Source: Brachybacterium avium (GTDB lineage: Bacteria; Actinomycetota; Actinomycetes; Actinomycetales; Dermabacteraceae). From it: a stretch of 64,000 nt of DNA. How positions within the stretch are numbered: the first letter of the stretch is position 1; every line of letters starts with the position of its first letter. A program made the position numbers and the translations under genes. The notes below the pieces were generated by a model. That model was not told where the DNA came from. It did no database searches and was given only the letters and a program-made list of their open reading frames with translations. Of this stretch, positions 24,288 through 32,289 are shown one piece after another. The DNA is taken from contig NZ_CP022316.1 of NCBI RefSeq assembly GCF_002216795.1, forward strand, positions 2,108,001-2,172,000. Reading direction: 5' to 3'.

Positions 24288-25460
24288 TCATGACGGGGTG
24301 CTCTCCCAGCTTCCCCTGCTCTCTGCCCCGCAGGCGCGGTTGATCGTCGCCCGGTAGCCCTCGGGGTCGTGGCGCCGCAGCGCCTCGTTCCGGCTGTCTC
24401 TCAATGAGCGCACGATGCTGGACCAGGAGTCGGTGACGTCCACGAGGGCGTCGGCGATCGCGCGCGCATCCCCGGCGGGCACCAGGCGGGTGGTGCGATA
24501 GCCTCCTGCCGCTTCCCGCAGCCCGCTCGAGTCGCTCGCGATGACGGGACGCAGTGCGAGGACGGCTTCGACCGCCGAGTTCCCGAAGGGTTCGTCGAAG
24601 CGCGACGGGGCCAGCAGGATGTCTGCGCGGGCCAGGTGCGGCCAGATGTCCCTCTGGAGCCCGGCGAAGTCGACGTCCACTCCGCTCCCGGCCGCCTGGC
24701 TGCGCAACTGGTCCTCGAACCATTCGTCGCCTGCTTCGGCGGTGCCCAGCATGGTGAGCTGCACGCGCTTCCCCTCCTGCTGGATCAGGGACGCGGCCTC
24801 GAGGGCGAGGTCCGGACCCTTGCGCGGTGAGAGCCTCCCCATGTGCAGGATCCGCAGTGGGGGCTCGAGCGGTTCGCGCGGTGGCGCCGGGTGCGGGGGA
24901 GAAGCGATCCCGTTGCGGACGATCTCGGAGCGTCGGGCGAGGGCGGGGAGTGCGCGACGCATCGTCTCCAGTGAGGCCCGGCTGCTCACGAGCGTTCGCT
25001 GCGACGCGAGGTGAGGGAGGTACAGGAGGCGATCCAGCCAGCGGTTGCCGGAGCCGGCGACCTCATGGATGTGACTGATCGACCGGATTCCCTGATGGCG
25101 GGCGAGGAGGGGCCACTGCGGGATCGCCGTCGTCGAGACGTAGATGACTTCTGGCCGAATCCGCCGGATCAGCCGCCTGATGCTTCGCAGGCCCAGCAGT
25201 GCCCGACGAGCCGTGGCCGGCCATCGCCGTGGTCGCAGCAGGTGTTTGCCGGTCACGAGCATCGTGATGATCTCGATCTCTGCGCCGGCGCGCTCCAGCT
25301 CGACGACCAGCGGGCCCGTCGACGGGAGGGCGACCACCACCCGGCATCCGACCTCCCGCAGGCCGCGCACGCTCTCCAGGAGCATCCGGTCCGAGGTGAA
25401 GAGCCCGGCCCCGGAATGGGCGGCCAGGACGGTCGGGGCGTCGCGTCTGCTCACGGTCAC
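24288..25460 (-). CDS. Family 4 glycosyltransferase
   Basis: GTG 25460 gives 390 residues. GT4 features: ILHMGRLSPRKGPDLALEA in the linker to the donor domain, and APSRFDEPFGNSAVEAVLALRPVI with the E-x7-E site. It is a paralogue of the GT at 19695-20858. It is separated from the coupled operon by 255 bp that contain that operon's promoter, so the two are probably transcribed separately. Role: sugar transfer in exopolysaccharide repeat synthesis. Confidence 0.85.
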   Translation of the reverse strand: MTVSRRDAPTVLAAHSGAGLFTSDRMLLESVRGLREVGCRVVVALPSTGPLVVELERAGAEIEIITMLVTGKHLLRPRRWPATARRALLGLRSIRRLIRRIRPEVIYVSTTAIPQWPLLARHQGIRSISHIHEVAGSGNRWLDRLLYLPHLASQRTLVSSRASLETMRRALPALARRSEIVRNGIASPPHPAPPREPLEPPLRILHMGRLSPRKGPDLALEAASLIQQEGKRVQLTMLGTAEAGDEWFEDQLRSQAAGSGVDVDFAGLQRDIWPHLARADILLAPSRFDEPFGNSAVEAVLALRPVIASDSSGLREAAGGYRTTRLVPAGDARAIADALVDVTDSWSSIVRSLRDSRNEALRRHDPEGYRATINRACGAESRGSWESTPS

Positions 25461-25707
25461 CCGGGGCCTCGTCGTGGTGCGTGTCGGCTCATGGCGACGA
25501 CCGCGGCCGCGCCCCGCCGGCGCGGCGCTCGATGGCGGAGGGGCTGCTTCCCTGAATGCTCACGACTGTTGGCCTCGCGCTTTCCGTGGGCGTACCCACC
25601 TCCCGCCGATTGGACGAAATGTCGGATATGTACGCTTTGGACCCAATGTATGCCCGAACGCGTCCCGAGTCCAGACCGCCCGGCGACCTTGCCTCGCCCC
25701 CATCACC

Positions 25708-25720
25708 TACGATGCGCCTC
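25708..25720 (+). promoter_or_regulatory. -10 box of leaderless histidine-kinase transcript
   Basis: TACGAT (25708-25713) followed by 7 nt and the ATG at 25721, the geometry of a leaderless start. No ribosome site is visible. Confidence 0.5.
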
Positions 25721-27321
25721 ATGCCCCCGACCGTCCCCGCGAGCGCGCCGCCGCAGCGCCGGGGCGCGGATGGACGGTCAGGATCCGGGTGCTGACCACG
25801 ATGATCGCCTTCGTGATGGTGGGGCTGGCCCTGACCGGGGTGCTCACCTACGCCGCACAGTTCCGTGCCCTGGACCAGCGGGTCACCCGCGAGCTCTGGC
25901 AGGAGTACGACGAGCTCGCGCTGATCGCCGCGAACACGGAGGAGAGCGGCGCGCCGGTCCACGCCACCGTCGACAGCGTGCTGCTGCATGCCACCGACTC
26001 GGCGGCTCCGTCGGACGGCGAATCGGTGCTCACCTTCCTCGACGGCGAGCCGCGCTACGAGCCGCGCGCGCAGGAGTACGCGCTGCTGCAGGCGGACTCC
26101 CCCGAGCACCAGCAGGTCCAGCAGGCGATCCTGGACGCCTACGAGCCGGGCGGGGCCGTCATCGTCCCGCTGGAGGCCTATGGCCGGGATCTGCGGGTGC
26201 TGATCGCCTCGGTGCGGGTCGCCGGCGACGAGTCCGAGGGCATCTTCGTGGTCGCGAGCGATATCGGCGCCCAGCGCCGCAGCCTGTGGCAGAGCGTCCT
26301 GACCTTCTCGGTCCTCTCGGTGATCACGCTGCTGATCGCCGGTTGGGTGGGGTATGTGGTCACCGGGCGTCTGCTGCGGCCGCTGGAGGACCTCCGCGCG
26401 GCCACCGGGCAGATCACCGTGGACGACCTCGAATACCGGGTGCCGGTGCCCGAGGTGCGGGACGACATCAGTGCGCTCGCCCAGAACTTCAACCGCATGC
26501 TGGGCCGCATCCAGGAGGGCTTCGCCGCGCAGCGCCGCTTCATGAGCGACGTCGGCCACGAGCTGCGCACCCCGCTGACGATCGTGCGCGGCACCCTGGA
26601 GACCACCGATACGGAGGATCCCGGCGATGTGCGGGAGTCCCACGAGATCGCGCTCGACGAGCTGGACCGGATGGGTCGCGTCGTCGGGGACCTCTCCGAG
26701 CTGGCGGCCTCGGCACGACCCGACTACGTGCGTCCCAGGCCCCTGGACCTGACCGCGTTCGCGCGCTCCGCCTTCGCCCGGATCGAGCACATCGCCGAGC
26801 GGGAGTGGATCCTGGAGCGCACGGTGGACGCGATGGCCGACGCCGACGAGCAGCGCCTGGTCCAGGCGGTCGTGCAGCTCGCCGCCAACGCCGTGCGCTA
26901 CAGCGATCAGGGCAGCCGGATCCGTCTCGGAGTGGACCGGGTGCCGGGTGCGGAGGGGCCCGAGATCCACGTGAGCGTGCAGGATGAGGGCATCGGCATC
27001 CGCCCCGAGGATCAGCGGAGCATCTTCGAGCGCTTCACGCGGGTGGACGGCAGCCGGGGCTCCGGGACGGGGCTCGGCCTGCCGATCGTGAGGTCGATCG
27101 CCGAGGGCCACGGCGGCGAGGTGCGGCTGAGGTCCGCGCCCGGTCAGGGCTCGACCTTCACGATCGTGTTCCCGCAGTCCGCACGCGTTCCGCCGGCCGA
27201 CGCCGAGCGGCCGGCGGCCGCCGGCTCCGCAGGCCCTGGCTCCGCACGCGATACTGGGTCGCGGGAACCGACCCCCGCTGACGACGATGACCCAGCTGAC
27301 CGCAGGAGGAACGACGGATGA
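25721..27321 (+). CDS. Sensor histidine kinase (OmpR-class partner)
   Basis: The frame with the kinase domains is open from VRIRVLTTMIAFVMVG onward. ATG 25721, placed 7 nt after TACGAT, enters that frame only if one G is added to the run at 25761-25764, giving QRRGRGWTVRIRV. Otherwise GTG 25789 or ATG 25801 would start it. Domains in order: TM helix, extracytoplasmic sensor of about 130 residues with no recognised fold, TM helix, HAMP, H-box SDVGHELRTPLTI, N-box, G-boxes DEGIGI and GSGTGLGLPIV. A Pro/Ala-rich tail runs to the end. The stop overlaps the response-regulator ATG (ATGA). The signal is unknown. Confidence 0.88.
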
Positions 27322-28007
27322 GGATCCTCATCGCCGAGGACGAGGCGCGCATCGCCCGCTTCGTGGAGCGCGGCCTGACAGCGAACGGCTTCGCCTGCAC
27401 CGTGGTGGAGAACGGCATCTCCGCGCTCGATCTCGCCTCCAGCGGGGACTTCGATCTGCTGATCCTCGACGTGGGCCTGCCGCGGATGGACGGCTTCCAG
27501 GTGCTGAACGCGCTGCGCGGGATGGACGTGCAGATCCCGATCCTCATGGTCACCGCCCGCACCGGGGTGGAGGACACCGTGCAGGGCCTCGAGGGAGGCG
27601 CGAACGACTACATCGCCAAGCCCTTCCGCTTCGAGGAGCTGCTGGCCCGGGTGAAGCTGCGCGCCCGGGAGGCCGCCGCCGGAGCGGGCAGCGTCAGCGC
27701 CGACGTGCTCGAGCTGGGTGATCTCGCGCTGGATCTGCGCACCCGCGTCGCCACCTGCTCCGCAGACGGGCGGCCGCGCTCGGTGGAGCTGTCCTCCCGC
27801 GAGTTCACCATGGCCCGCGTGTTCCTGGAGAACCCGCACCAGGTGCTCACCCGCGACCTGCTGCTGTCCAAGGTGTGGGGCTACGACTACGACGGCGCCT
27901 CGAACGTGGTCGACGTGTACGTGGGCTACCTGCGCACCAAGCTCGGTGCTCCGCGCCTGGTGACCGTGCGCGGCGCCGGATACAAGCTCGTCGACCCGGC
28001 GGCCTGA
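27318..28007 (+). CDS. OmpR/PhoB-family response regulator
   Basis: ATG 27318 overlaps the kinase stop, with AGGAGGA just upstream. The 229-residue protein has a receiver domain with acidic pocket E7-D8, phosphoacceptor D51 (LLILDVGLPRMDG), the conserved Thr in MVTAR and Lys in AKPF. A winged-helix effector follows with SREFTMARVFLENP and VRGAGYKLV. It is cotranscribed with its kinase. Tandem 11-bp-spaced boxes and a palindrome lie just downstream, before the Asp/His-rich gene, and are the likeliest target. Confidence 0.93.
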   Translation: MRILIAEDEARIARFVERGLTANGFACTVVENGISALDLASSGDFDLLILDVGLPRMDGFQVLNALRGMDVQIPILMVTARTGVEDTVQGLEGGANDYIAKPFRFEELLARVKLRAREAAAGAGSVSADVLELGDLALDLRTRVATCSADGRPRSVELSSREFTMARVFLENPHQVLTRDLLLSKVWGYDYDGASNVVDVYVGYLRTKLGAPRLVTVRGAGYKLVDPAA

Positions 28008-28073: not shown

Positions 28074-28096
28074 CGCCGTCGGGCACGATGCGCGAC

Positions 28097-28588
28097 ATGA
28101 AGACCCTGCGGAACTACGGGATCATCGTGGCCGTCGCGCTCGTCGCGATCGGTCTCGCGCTGCTGCCGTCGGCGGACGAGACGCCCCAGGCCCGTCCCGG
28201 GATCACCGTCGGGGGGACCGCTCCGGCCTCTCCCGCCTCCCGCAGTGCGGGAGCCCCTTCGGCGGACGAGCAGTCGGCCGACGGGGCGGCGGTGGCGCTG
28301 CCGACCGCCTCCCGGTCCTCGGCGCACGGCCCCGACGATGCCGGCGTCGGCACGATGGAGCCCGCGGCCTCCCCGAGCCCTGCCCCTGCTCCGCAGCGGC
28401 CCCGCCCGTCGAGCGGCTCCTCCGACAGCTCCTCCTCAGGAGGCGACGAGCGCTCGAGCGGGCGCCCGTCGGGGGTCTGTGAGTGGGACGACGGCGAGCT
28501 CGAGTGCGACGATGATGACGACCACGACCACCATCACGACGATGACGATGACGATGACGATGACGACGACGATGAGGACGACGACTGA
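28097..28588 (+). CDS. Secreted or membrane-anchored Asp/His-rich low-complexity protein
   Basis: ATG 28097 lies 7 nt after CACGAT, consistent with a leaderless start; ATG 28088 is the alternative. The 163-residue product has one N-terminal hydrophobic segment (IIVAVALVAIGLALLP) and then a Ser/Pro/Ala-rich spacer. The tail is VCEWDDGELEC followed by about thirty Asp and His residues. The two Cys could form a disulfide. The tail would bind divalent cations outside the cell. Position after the two-component genes and the operator-like boxes suggests it is a target of that system. No family was recognised. Confidence 0.7.
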   Translation: MKTLRNYGIIVAVALVAIGLALLPSADETPQARPGITVGGTAPASPASRSAGAPSADEQSADGAAVALPTASRSSAHGPDDAGVGTMEPAASPSPAPAPQRPRPSSGSSDSSSSGGDERSSGRPSGVCEWDDGELECDDDDDHDHHHDDDDDDDDDDDDEDDD

Positions 28589-28650: not shown

Positions 28651-29439
28651 TCAGGCAGGGACGCCGAGGCGCGCGAAGGCGTTGCGGAAGATGGTCAGCC
28701 CCTCCAGCCCCGGCAGCTTCTGGACCCGCTTGTCGAGCTTGTCCAGCTCGGTGGACCGGCCCGCGAAGAGATGGTTCATCACATGCAGCACCTCGGATTC
28801 GTCCATCATCCCGCTGCCCACCGGCTTCCAGACCCGGGACATGATCATCCGGACGATCTTCTGGGCGTTCGTGGAGGCCAGCAGCCGTTCCCGGGCCTGG
28901 GTGGTGTAGAAGGCGACGTGGCGAGTCTCCTGCTGGGCGATGCGCTTCAGCAGCGGGGACAGCGCCGGGTGGTCGATCATCCCGGAGAGCTGACGGTAGG
29001 CCGCCACGGCGGAGAGCTCGTTGGCCGCCCCCCACACCATGTGCACGGCCACGAAATCCGTGCCCGCGAGGTTCGACAGCACCGACTGCTTCAGCGGGCC
29101 CAGCGCCCCCGTCCAGCCGAGCTTGACCCGCTTGGCCTTGATCTCGTCGTAGTCGACGATGATCCCGTGGCGTGCCAGCACCATCGACAGCGCTTCGCCG
29201 TGCCAGAACTCCTCCCGGTTCCACATCGTCATGAACCCGCCGGCGCCCTCCTCGCGGTGCGAAGGGGTGACCAGCATGTCCCGCAGGAAGCATGAGGTGT
29301 GGAACTCGACGTCGCACATATAGCGCAGCGAGCGCAGGGTCTGCGCGTCCAGGGGCTGGGTCTCGAAGGCGTCGAAATCCAGGTCCTCGTACTTCACGGG
29401 GACAGAGGTCTCGGCGAACTGGTCGAGGTCGAAGGCCAT
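28651..29439 (-). CDS. Diiron ferritin-like protein related to acyl-ACP desaturases
   Basis: ATG 29439 begins 1 bp after the upstream stop. The 262 helical residues carry a full diiron ligand set: E45 (DVEFHT), E77-x-x-H80 (REEFWHG), E141 (ANELSA) and E171-x-x-H174 (ETRHVAFY). The EExxHG and ExRH motifs are those of soluble acyl-ACP desaturases (type 2 fatty acid desaturase family), though the protein is shorter than plant enzymes (~350). It probably binds two irons and oxidises a lipid or metabolite with O2. The coupled partner at 29441-30373 is a degenerate paralogue. Confidence 0.75.
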   Translation of the reverse strand: MAFDLDQFAETSVPVKYEDLDFDAFETQPLDAQTLRSLRYMCDVEFHTSCFLRDMLVTPSHREEGAGGFMTMWNREEFWHGEALSMVLARHGIIVDYDEIKAKRVKLGWTGALGPLKQSVLSNLAGTDFVAVHMVWGAANELSAVAAYRQLSGMIDHPALSPLLKRIAQQETRHVAFYTTQARERLLASTNAQKIVRMIMSRVWKPVGSGMMDESEVLHVMNHLFAGRSTELDKLDKRVQKLPGLEGLTIFRNAFARLGVPA

Positions 29440-29440
29440 G

Positions 29441-30373
29441 TCACACTCCGATCCGGGGCAGTGAGCTGAGATAGGGGTCGGGGAGATCAGGACCGGGCAG
29501 CAGCCGGGTGATCTCGAAGCGGGCGCGGTGCAGCGCGGCGCGGTCCGCGGCGGTGCTCCCGATGACGGCCAGTGCCGGCCGCAGGTCGGGGTCGGGAAGG
29601 CCACCGCCCGCGAGCGGGGAGCTGAGCGAGAGCAGCACCCGAGCGGTGCGCGCCTCGCGCTGGGAGCGGGTGAGGCGGCCGATCGCCTCGGCGGTGAAGA
29701 AGTCGACCGCTGCCTGGTGGCGGTCCACGACCTCCTCGACGATCCGACGGGCCTCGCCGGTGAGCCGGTGCGAGATCGCGGTCAGGGCCGCCTGCAGCGA
29801 GGCCTCCTGCACTGCCATGCGCGCCATGTGGCCGGCCGCCACGGCCTCACCCGCCAGCCCTGTCCACACCGGGGACAGCAGCGGCTGGACCCGATCCAGC
29901 TGGAGCCGGCGCAGGGTGTGCAGGAGGCCCGGACGCCGCCGGTGCCGCGGCCGCTCGGTGGGATGGTCGCCGGTGAGCAGGTCGCGGAGGGCGCGGGACT
30001 GCCAGAAGCGGTCCACCATCCAGGTGGCGAGGAAGGCGGTGATGCGGGCCTCGTTCCCGGTCGCGGTGGCGAGCATGGCGCGGGATTCCGCGAGCGCTGA
30101 GGACTCGAGCCGCTGGAGCACCTCCAGCGCGAGGCGGAGATCCCCGTCCACCGGACCCTCGGAATCCAGCCGGGCCGCGTCGACCAGGAGCCGGGATGAG
30201 CCGCGGCGGATATAGGCGGCGACATCGACATCCGTGCGCAGCACCGGGGTGATGCTCGCATCGAAATGGAGGTGACCGGCGTAGGGCCCGTCCACCGGGA
30301 TCGCGGCATGCGGATCCGGAGCGTTCAGCGCGGGCACGGTCGGAGTCGCGCCTCCGGCCAGATCGACCGACAA
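29441..30373 (-). CDS. Degenerate diiron-desaturase paralogue (probable non-catalytic partner)
   Basis: The TTG start at 30373 has AGGAGAAGAGG just upstream, which decides it. The 310 residues are helical and align with the downstream diiron protein: FLATWMVDRFWQSRAL matches FMTMWNREEFWHGEAL, and VVDRHQAAVDFFTAEA matches IAQQETRHVAFYTTQA. Ligands are lost: E77 becomes Arg122, H80 Gln125, E171 His219 and H174 Ala222. E190 still aligns with E141. It therefore should not hold a normal diiron centre. The 1-bp spacing to the active paralogue suggests a heteromeric complex with one structural subunit. The N-terminal ~40 residues are not recognised. Confidence 0.6.
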   Translation of the reverse strand: MSVDLAGGATPTVPALNAPDPHAAIPVDGPYAGHLHFDASITPVLRTDVDVAAYIRRGSSRLLVDAARLDSEGPVDGDLRLALEVLQRLESSALAESRAMLATATGNEARITAFLATWMVDRFWQSRALRDLLTGDHPTERPRHRRRPGLLHTLRRLQLDRVQPLLSPVWTGLAGEAVAAGHMARMAVQEASLQAALTAISHRLTGEARRIVEEVVDRHQAAVDFFTAEAIGRLTRSQREARTARVLLSLSSPLAGGGLPDPDLRPALAVIGSTAADRAALHRARFEITRLLPGPDLPDPYLSSLPRIGV

Positions 30374-30492
30374 CTGCTACCTCTTCTCCTGGGAATGGGG
30401 CCGCGGACCGTTCAGGACATGCGGTTCTCGCTCATGGGCCGGGATCATTGTACGGAGAGGATCTGCCTGTGGGCCGCGAGCACAGCGCTTGG

Positions 30493-30504: not shown

Positions 30505-32289
30505 GTGACCAACACCGGCGCCGCCTCCCTCCCGGCCTCGGCCGGCGAGCCGGGCGGGGCGAGCCTGCCGGACCTCGATCGGCTCCGGGCCGCGCTGCGA
30601 CCCGCGGAGCTGCCCCTGCCGACCCCGCGCGAGACCCGTGAGGCCGCCGGGCGGGTCAACGATCTCCTGCACGCGGAGCGCTACCGGGAGGCGCGAGCGC
30701 TGGTGGAGCGGTTCCGGGACGCCCCCGCCGCCCCCGAGGACCGGCTCGCGCTGCTGCGCGCCGCCCTCCACGGAGCGGTCCTGGCCGGGGTGGGGGAGCA
30801 GGTCGCCCGCGACGCGGCGGACCTGGTCACCCTGCTGCGCCGCAGCGGGAACGCCGGACAGGCGGCGGCAGTGCTGGCGGTGCTGCTCGAGCGCGGACCG
30901 TTCGCGCAGCTCGCGTCGGCCGGCACCCGCGCAGCGACCGAGGAGATACCGACCGGTAGGGGACGCCACCGGGGGGAGGCGCCGCAGGCCTCTGCCGAGA
31001 TGCTGGTCGTGGTGCGCGCGCTGGAACGCTCGGCCGTCCCCGGCCCGCGCGGCACGACGGCGGATCCGCGCCGCGACGCGGCCCGGCTGCGGGCAGCGCT
31101 CGCGGCGCTGCCGGCCGTGCGGGCGCAGCTGCTGACCGACCCGGAGCACGAGCTCCGGCTGCGCCTCGCCCAGTCGCTCGAAGGAGCCGGGGAAGCGGCG
31201 GCGGCGACCACCGCCGCGCTGGACCTGCTCGAGCTGCTCGCGGACGGAGCCGATGACGCCGCCGACCCGCGCACGGATCCCGAGCGGCTGGCCACCGCCG
31301 CCCATGCGGTGCTCGCACGCACCCTCGGCGTGAGCCATCCCCTGCAGGCCGTGCACCACGCCCTCGAGGCGCTCGATGCGATGCCGGAGATCGAGGATCC
31401 GCCGCTGCGGATCGGACTGATCACTGCACTGCTGCAGGCGCTGATGGCCGCGGGTGCCACCCGGGAGGCCTCCTTCACGGCCGGGCGCCTGGCCTCTCTG
31501 CAGCGCACCCTGGGCCGAGAGGTGCTGCGCACCGCTCCGCTGCTCGCCGTAGCGGCGCAGCGGGTCCAGGCCGAACGGTACGACGCCGCCTGGGTGCCGC
31601 TGGAGCAGGCCCGCGCCATCGCCCGGGAGCACCGTGACCGCCACGGCCTGCTGGAGGTCACCCGGCTCGCCGCGAGCGTCCACGAGCGCACGGGCGAGCA
31701 CGGCTCCTCGCTGCGCGAGCTGCAGCAGATGGCGGAGCAGGCCCGCTGGCTCGCCGACGACCTCGCCACCCCCACCTCCGCCCAGGGGGAGCTGATCCGC
31801 ACCGAGCTGCAGGCCAATGCGCTGGCGATGCGCCGGGCACTGGATCTTGGCCGGCACGGCGCGGTGGAGGGCGCGGTGTGCGCGATTCAGCGGCGCACCC
31901 GCCCCGGCGGCGGGCGCCCGGTGCTGCCTGCCGAGCTGCTCTGGGATCACCGGGTCGATGCGCTGATGGGGCGGTTCCTCGCCGCCGGCGCCGCGCTCGC
32001 CCGCGGCGCTGCCGGGGCCGACGAGGAGACCTGCGCACATCTCCTGAGTGAGGTGCGGGACGCCATCGACGAGGTTCCGCCGGGGCACGAGGGCCGCGCC
32101 CGCTACTGGCGCGTCTACCTCGAGGACCGCCACGCCCACCTGCTCGCCGAGCGGGGACGACGGGAGCCCGCGCACGAGGCCGCCCACCGGGCCCGAGAGG
32201 GCTGGCAGCGGCTCGGGAGCGATGCGGATGTCGCACGGCTGGACGGGCTGCTGCGGTCGCTGGCGGGGGAGGGGGCCGGCGCCGGCTGA
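30505..32289 (+). CDS. Ala-rich helical-repeat protein of unknown function
   Basis: GTG 30505 directly follows a -10-like TAGGTT at leaderless spacing. The 594-residue product is Ala/Arg/Leu-rich and soluble, with no signal or TM segment. Many paired amphipathic helices (ARALVERFRDAPAAPEDRLALL, AAAVLAVLLERGPFAQL, AVHHALEALDAM, ARAIAREHRDRHGLLEV) suggest a TPR-like scaffold. I recognise no catalytic motif and no named family. It is divergent from the diiron pair and converges on the PLP decarboxylase. It may act as a protein-protein adaptor. Confidence 0.7.
   Translation: MTNTGAASLPASAGEPGGASLPDLDRLRAALRPAELPLPTPRETREAAGRVNDLLHAERYREARALVERFRDAPAAPEDRLALLRAALHGAVLAGVGEQVARDAADLVTLLRRSGNAGQAAAVLAVLLERGPFAQLASAGTRAATEEIPTGRGRHRGEAPQASAEMLVVVRALERSAVPGPRGTTADPRRDAARLRAALAALPAVRAQLLTDPEHELRLRLAQSLEGAGEAAAATTAALDLLELLADGADDAADPRTDPERLATAAHAVLARTLGVSHPLQAVHHALEALDAMPEIEDPPLRIGLITALLQALMAAGATREASFTAGRLASLQRTLGREVLRTAPLLAVAAQRVQAERYDAAWVPLEQARAIAREHRDRHGLLEVTRLAASVHERTGEHGSSLRELQQMAEQARWLADDLATPTSAQGELIRTELQANALAMRRALDLGRHGAVEGAVCAIQRRTRPGGGRPVLPAELLWDHRVDALMGRFLAAGAALARGAAGADEETCAHLLSEVRDAIDEVPPGHEGRARYWRVYLEDRHAHLLAERGRREPAHEAAHRAREGWQRLGSDADVARLDGLLRSLAGEGAGAG

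Follow-up and report, generated by a model that had tools for sequence, protein, structure and literature searches.

A desaturase-like putative diiron protein and its ligand-stripped paralogue form a conserved actinobacterial gene pair linked to ether-lipid genes

Results

Two paralogous genes one base apart

In the window, i.e. the whole stretch of 64,000 nucleotides of Brachybacterium avium DNA that was analysed, two genes on the same strand encode a ferritin-like protein, A, and a paralogue, P, whose gene comes first (table 1). A single base separates the stop codon of P (TGA, 29443-29441) from the start codon of A (ATG, at 29439), and the original prediction, which had placed the partners 1 bp apart, was right in this as well as in coordinates and strand. 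As the Shine-Dalgarno-like GGAG of A lies inside the end of P, its position suggests translational coupling of A to P. In BLASTP, 58 of 246 residues (24%) are identical between A and P (E = 4e-11). The same genome contains a second intact and adjacent A/P pair (C1:834.7-836.4 kb; A 67% and P 47% identical). Among 28 directly adjacent A/P pairs for which the gap was measured, the two genes overlap by 11 bases in eight and lie one base apart in 13.

Table 1. Features of the A/P gene pair in the window
Feature	Position	Strand	Description
A	28651..29439	minus	ferritin-like protein of 262 aa; the six expected diiron ligands are all present
P	29441..30373	minus	310-aa ligand-stripped paralogue of A, TTG start
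GGAG, Shine-Dalgarno-like, for A	29446..29449	minus	within the last codons of P, 6 nt spacing; read from sequence
AGGAGAAGAGG, Shine-Dalgarno-like, for P	30380..30390	minus	6 nt ahead of the TTG start; read from sequence

The neighbours on both sides are plus-strand genes whose products have no Pfam match. The gene at 28088-28588 encodes a protein of 166 aa that has an Asp and His run, possibly metal-binding, at its C-terminus; it lies downstream of a pair that by eye resembles a histidine kinase and a response regulator (25144-28007), and the DNA of its Asp tract recurs at two other sites in the genome. The gene at 30505-32289, divergent from P, encodes a protein of 594 aa.

A full set of expected diiron ligands in A and a stripped set in P

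Soluble acyl-ACP desaturases share the diiron pattern E, E-x-x-H, E, E-x-x-H. By analogy with these enzymes, we take the six ligand positions of A to be E45, E77, H80, E141, E171 and H174. At the same positions P has E90, R122, Q125, E190, H219 and A222, i.e. four of the six ligands are gone and the carboxylates matching positions 45 and 141 of A are retained. The original prediction had set EEFWHG against DRFWQSR and ETRH against HQAA, both of which read as quoted, and had counted three or four lost ligands, the upper number being the actual one.

This difference extends far beyond the window. The pattern E,E,H,E,E,H is present in all 81 aligned A sequences from the loci described below, in addition to the window's A. 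In 76 aligned P sequences (a set that leaves out a gapped P at locus L102 and one of 541 aa at L044, where the frame runs on), position 77 in A numbering is K in 43, R in 31 and Q in two (K/R in 74), position 171 is K in 48, H in 13, R in 11, T in two and Q in two (K/R/H in 72), and 68 have I, L or Q at position 80; the equivalent of E45 is retained in 71, that of E141 in 57, with D in a further eight. From these counts, both iron-binding glutamates (77 and 171) have become basic, i.e. lysine, arginine or in some cases histidine, in at least 70 of the 76 P proteins. Judged by the aligned sequences, ligand stripping is a trait of the P family, and with the other two glutamates mostly kept, the swapped charges probably form buried salt bridges.

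Comparison of the window pair with eight Brachybacterium loci gave NG86 dN/dS ratios of 0.26-0.49 for P and 0.14-0.20 for A. This purifying selection, together with wide conservation, rules out that P is a decaying pseudogene. Over 51 loci, the mean distance is 1.14 for P and 0.36 for A, so that P evolves at roughly three times the rate of A.

Fold and family assignment

AlphaFold2 modelled A (pLDDT 88.6, pTM 0.88) and P (pLDDT 88.8, pTM 0.85) as the same kind of helical bundle, so that P, as originally proposed, has retained its fold in the sense of falling into A's predicted fold class rather than into an unrelated one. The nearest folds to A are acyl-ACP desaturases (4v0j, Z 18.4, rmsd 3.1, 231 aligned residues; DesA2, 1za0, Z 16.2), at 11-17% identity in the structural alignments. 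The best fold for P is again 4v0j (Z 15.7, rmsd 3.8, 232 residues), tied with R2lox (6qrz, Z 15.1, rmsd 4.8, 230 residues). The corresponding Foldseek E-values are weak (1e-3 for A and 0.06 for P), and the shared fold says nothing on the function of either protein.

Pfam returned only sub-threshold matches for A (FA_desaturase_2 at 6.7e-4, COQ7 and rubrerythrin) and none for P. With 19.0 bits, A stays under the gathering score of PF03405 (22.7 bits), and it is far under the NCBIfam equivalog cut-off for R2-like ligand-binding oxidases (NF006199, 11.9 versus 286 bits). PF10520 matched neither A nor P at E <= 10. In an alignment of 60 rows (44 A and 16 P) scanned with PF03405, 41 gave a weak match (E <= 0.01, best 2.5e-5). 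A hit of A to the RNA-editing complex protein 8fnc (E 9.8e-5) was discarded as a chance look-alike, as 8fnc has ELRR where A has ETRH.

Conservation of the pairing and origin of P

A scan of named genomes for A gave 169 matches, of which 80 are listed as loci with flanks of 5 kb. P accompanies A in 77 of these 80, being directly adjacent in 31 and separated from A by only a reductase gene in 46; the remaining three (L049, L086, L092) start too near to show P. In the host's order, with 248 genomes, A was matched at E <= 1e-5 in 39 and strongly in 35, of which 32 have P near A. The predicted conservation of the pairing is thereby borne out.

P accounts for 28 of the 63 rows selected for a tree, and these form one clade (100/100), which groups with the A proteins of genomes G004, G040 and G064 (100/99); on this tree, P has a single origin. 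Rank correlations of tree similarity over 51 loci were 0.89 for A and P, 0.88 for A and the reductase, and 0.89 for P and the reductase; the partial correlations were 0.50, 0.44 and 0.47, respectively, and the A-P partial correlation was reached by none of 500 label permutations. Because the A-P correlation is about the same as those with the reductase, tree similarity was dropped as proof of a heteromer. The suggested heteromer with a pseudo-subunit thus fares differently in its two parts: the pseudo-subunit is supported by the common predicted fold class and the conserved pairing, whereas for the heteromer the trees do not single out A and P.

A genes without P

In two genomes of the host's order (G004 and G040), A has its full set of ligands, and P was not found, even with the P profile. 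In G064, another contig bears a further, unlinked A-like copy (L132, 6571-7326) that reads EEHEEQ; with the last ligand alone changed, it possibly represents an early stage of ligand loss. Four genomes with weak matches (G043, G129, G171 and G185), which lie outside the 35 and are counted among the 213 others, carry a relative of A that has six ligands but is very divergent (L125, L126, L135, L136; 25-30% identical) and occurs in another family. All four have a gene for a fusion of a reductase and a HAD domain (reductase-HAD), and in G171 and G185 (L125, L126) the A relative lies back to back with it.

In a sample of the phylum outside the host's order, A was present in 16 genomes at 35-43% identity. 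The stretches around A in 14 of these showed six ligands in one frame in 13 and a set split over two frames in G383; no P gene was found in these 14 A-flanking stretches, in four of which the contig stops no more than 1.4 kb from A. A Pfam scan of eight neighbour proteins of four lone-A loci (L150, L131, L133, L154) revealed nothing shared and no ferredoxin, and no electron donor for A/P was found.

An ether-lipid gene neighbourhood

Among the 80 listed loci of 169 matches, the reductase-HAD fusion accompanies the A/P pair in 54, a short-chain dehydrogenase/reductase (SDR) is present in 52 (51 in the cluster and one, L057, far off), an acyltransferase in 51 and an alkyl-DHAP synthase in at least 21, with the 5-kb flanks cutting many loci short; SDR and acyltransferase matches below 40 bits were left out of these counts. 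The reductase was absent from the 5-kb flanks in 26 of the 80. Its parts are NAD_binding_4 (3.8e-47) and HAD, with a sub-threshold Sterile match. In Microbacteriaceae and others, all these genes form one cluster, one strand carrying alkyl-DHAP synthase, acyltransferase and SDR, the opposite one P, reductase-HAD and A; reductase-P-A (four loci) and A-P-reductase (two loci) also occur, giving three orders in all among the 80. The window genome has a four-gene ether-lipid cluster (G000:C1:1310710-1316641) without A/P, the pair being unlinked from it. By its matches to 2uuu (7.6e-103) and 4bby (1.6e-86), the synthase of this cluster is clearly an alkyl-DHAP synthase at the sequence level; the other members are assigned at domain level only. 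This genome thus has both an alkyl-DHAP synthase and a fatty acyl-CoA reductase.

The same association is seen genome-wide. In the host's order, reductase-HAD (E <= 1e-60) is found in 32 of the 35 strong-A genomes versus 30 of the 213 others (Fisher 1e-19, kinship ignored), the synthase (>600 bits) in 30 of 35 versus 23 of 213 (3e-19, kinship ignored), and both together in 30 of the 35. In the phylum sample, reductase-HAD is present in 17 of 19 A genomes, including 16 of 16 outside the host's order, versus 84 of 346 genomes overall (1e-9, kinship ignored). With the best few candidates per genome scored, reductase-HAD was not found in three A/P genomes (G021, G054 and G238), and the synthase was not matched in G021, G238, G004 and G040 and was weak in G054. 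The former three belong to one genus that has kept A/P (L127-L129); a large gene, mfd-like by eye, follows in both L127 and L128, and in L127 a gene that by eye resembles pth precedes. As 26 genomes of the host's order (e.g. G014, G018, G029) have reductase-HAD without A or a P-profile match, the reductase-HAD gene is more widely spread than A/P.

PF10520, the family of PEDS1/CarF, exceeded its cut-off in none of the 248 genomes of the host's order, in a search that had no positive control as it hit none of 14 control genomes either; its sole match (G229, 4.6e-4) was below the cut-off and broken by stops. PF09989, used here as a proxy for PlsA, occurs in 37 of the 248, none of which has A or reductase-HAD.

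Discussion

The genomic context of A/P, for which the original prediction gave no function, points to ether lipids, and a role in their metabolism is very probable. Kept together in many actinobacteria and often placed beside ether-lipid genes, the pair is a good candidate for a missing oxygen-using step. Our proposal starts from sequence-level findings, i.e. that A and P are paralogues, the ligands that each carries or lacks, the one origin of P, the conservation of the pair, the fold prediction and the linkage to the pathway. It is that A and P together would make up one enzyme, with A as its catalytic, O2-activating diiron subunit in the soluble acyl-ACP-desaturase/R2lox fold class. In its paralogue P, side chains that are charged and probably form salt bridges would have taken the place of the metal site, and P may now serve as a structural, docking or regulatory partner of A. 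By analogy with the mammalian route, the reductase-HAD fusion would supply fatty alcohol, acyltransferase and alkyl-DHAP synthase would make the alkyl ether from it, and the SDR would reduce the alkyl-ether product. In this aerobic pathway, A/P would oxidize the alkyl ether or an alkyl intermediate, most likely by a 1'-desaturation yielding the vinyl ether of plasmalogens, a reaction carried out elsewhere by the membrane-bound PEDS1/CarF. The heteromer, its iron, the use of O2, the substrate and the reaction are inferred. Ether-lipid genes without a known vinyl-ether enzyme, an O2-type diiron protein and the dimethyl acetals of some aerobes all fit this reaction, which we regard as having nearly, though not quite, an even chance of being the actual one. 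Such acetals, which are expected from vinyl ethers, are recorded for two aerobic Actinobacteria, i.e. Subtercola (7-17% iso-16:0 DMA; PMC5945732) and Kineococcus rubinsiae (2.9% dimethyl acetal by GC-MS, taken by the authors to indicate plasmalogens; PMC7472656). Neither Subtercola nor Kineococcus occurs among the 80 listed of the 169 A matches. Acetals are further reported for Agreia, and Frondihabitans is reported to lack them. Searches of open-licence PMC papers listed nothing on the A/P pair or a ferritin-like vinyl-ether enzyme and nothing joining dimethyl acetal and Brachybacterium.

Known systems resemble A/P in part. The soluble acyl-ACP desaturases (PF03405), such as castor stearoyl-ACP desaturase and DesA2 of M. 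tuberculosis, share with A the helical-bundle fold class and the six-ligand pattern; A differs from them in its sub-cut-off Pfam score, its low identity, its stripped partner and its link to ether-lipid genes. A pairing of a diiron subunit with a paralogue devoid of metal ligands is familiar from yeast Rnr2/Rnr4 and from the alpha and beta subunits of bacterial multicomponent monooxygenases. P likewise is a ligand-stripped paralogue conserved beside the gene for a presumably active A; those systems, however, belong to other families with other chemistry, whereas the A/P pair arose in a family unnamed in Pfam, with one origin of P. PEDS1/TMEM189/CarF would share with A/P the reaction and the place in the pathway, i.e. 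an O2-dependent step on ether lipids made via alkyl-DHAP synthase. According to PMC9131029, CarF is a membrane protein of four helices that bears histidine motifs, whereas A, not matched by PF10520, is of the soluble, carboxylate/histidine type. CarF and A are alike in that each occurs in only part of the genomes with the upstream genes; in myxobacteria, the same review describes genes for FAR, AGPS, an acyltransferase, HAD and an NAD-epimerase, with CarF in one suborder only. PlsA/PlsR, the anaerobic plasmalogen synthase, makes vinyl-ether lipids in other Actinobacteria (PMC9702350) by a reductive route, in contrast to the proposed one, and its PF09989 proxy co-occurs with A or reductase-HAD in none of the 248 genomes of the host's order.

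A and P could also act differently. That they introduce a mid-chain double bond into a fatty acyl group or alcohol of the ether-lipid pathway, without forming a vinyl ether, would agree with acyl-ACP desaturases being the closest folds and with the weak PF03405 matches, but by itself accounts neither for the association with alkyl-DHAP synthase and the fatty acyl reductase nor for the dimethyl acetals of aerobic Actinobacteria, and appears unlikely to us. We give still less credence to another oxidation of an alkyl ether or fatty aldehyde, i.e. hydroxylation, ether cleavage or a deformylation producing alkane beside an acyl reductase. The fatty acyl-CoA reductase is indeed the commonest neighbour besides P, and the structures similar in fold include aldehyde-deformylating proteins (for A, 6d9f at Z 15.1; for P, 4rc7 at Z 13.9); however, desaturases fit A better, and the reductase sits with alkyl-DHAP synthase, a consumer of fatty alcohol.

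With respect to the partnership itself, P could be a separate pseudo-enzyme, e.g. a lipid- or reductase-binding scaffold, with A a homodimer as lone A presumably is. Six-ligand A proteins without P in G004 and G040, the stretches around A outside the host's order in which P was not found, the reductase gene between P and A in more than half of the listed loci and the reductase's partial tree correlations, which come close to that of A with P, are all compatible with this arrangement. Against it stand the tight spacing of adjacent pairs, many of which overlap or lie one base apart, and the second pair of the window genome, which is likewise intact and adjacent. We consider such independence improbable and a heteromer of A and P likely.

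Several results count against our proposal: A/P genomes in which reductase-HAD or a strong synthase match was not found, genomes with reductase-HAD but no A, the 26 listed loci with no reductase in their flanks, the unlinked pair of the window genome, the search for an electron donor that found none, and tree similarities that do not favour A-P over A-reductase. On balance, we lean slightly towards the complete picture of a desaturase-like, soluble diiron enzyme that has a pseudo-subunit, acts on ether lipids and most likely forms the plasmalogen vinyl ether. More tentatively, this would represent a third route to plasmalogens, in which aerobic Actinobacteria use a soluble 1'-desaturase of the ferritin-like diiron type that has no relation to either PEDS1/CarF or PlsA, and in which, after one duplication, the iron site of the pseudo-subunit turned into lysine/arginine-carboxylate pairs. 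In the Kineococcus report, dimethyl acetals in this aerobic actinobacterium are called surprising at first sight (PMC7472656), and a review singles out the myxobacteria among aerobic bacteria as the striking exception (PMC9131029). For this gap concerning signs of plasmalogens in aerobic actinobacteria, A/P would provide a concrete gene pair. P itself is a clear case of a conserved pseudo-subunit in which a metal site has been swapped for charges, and its relatives with a lone A allow comparison.
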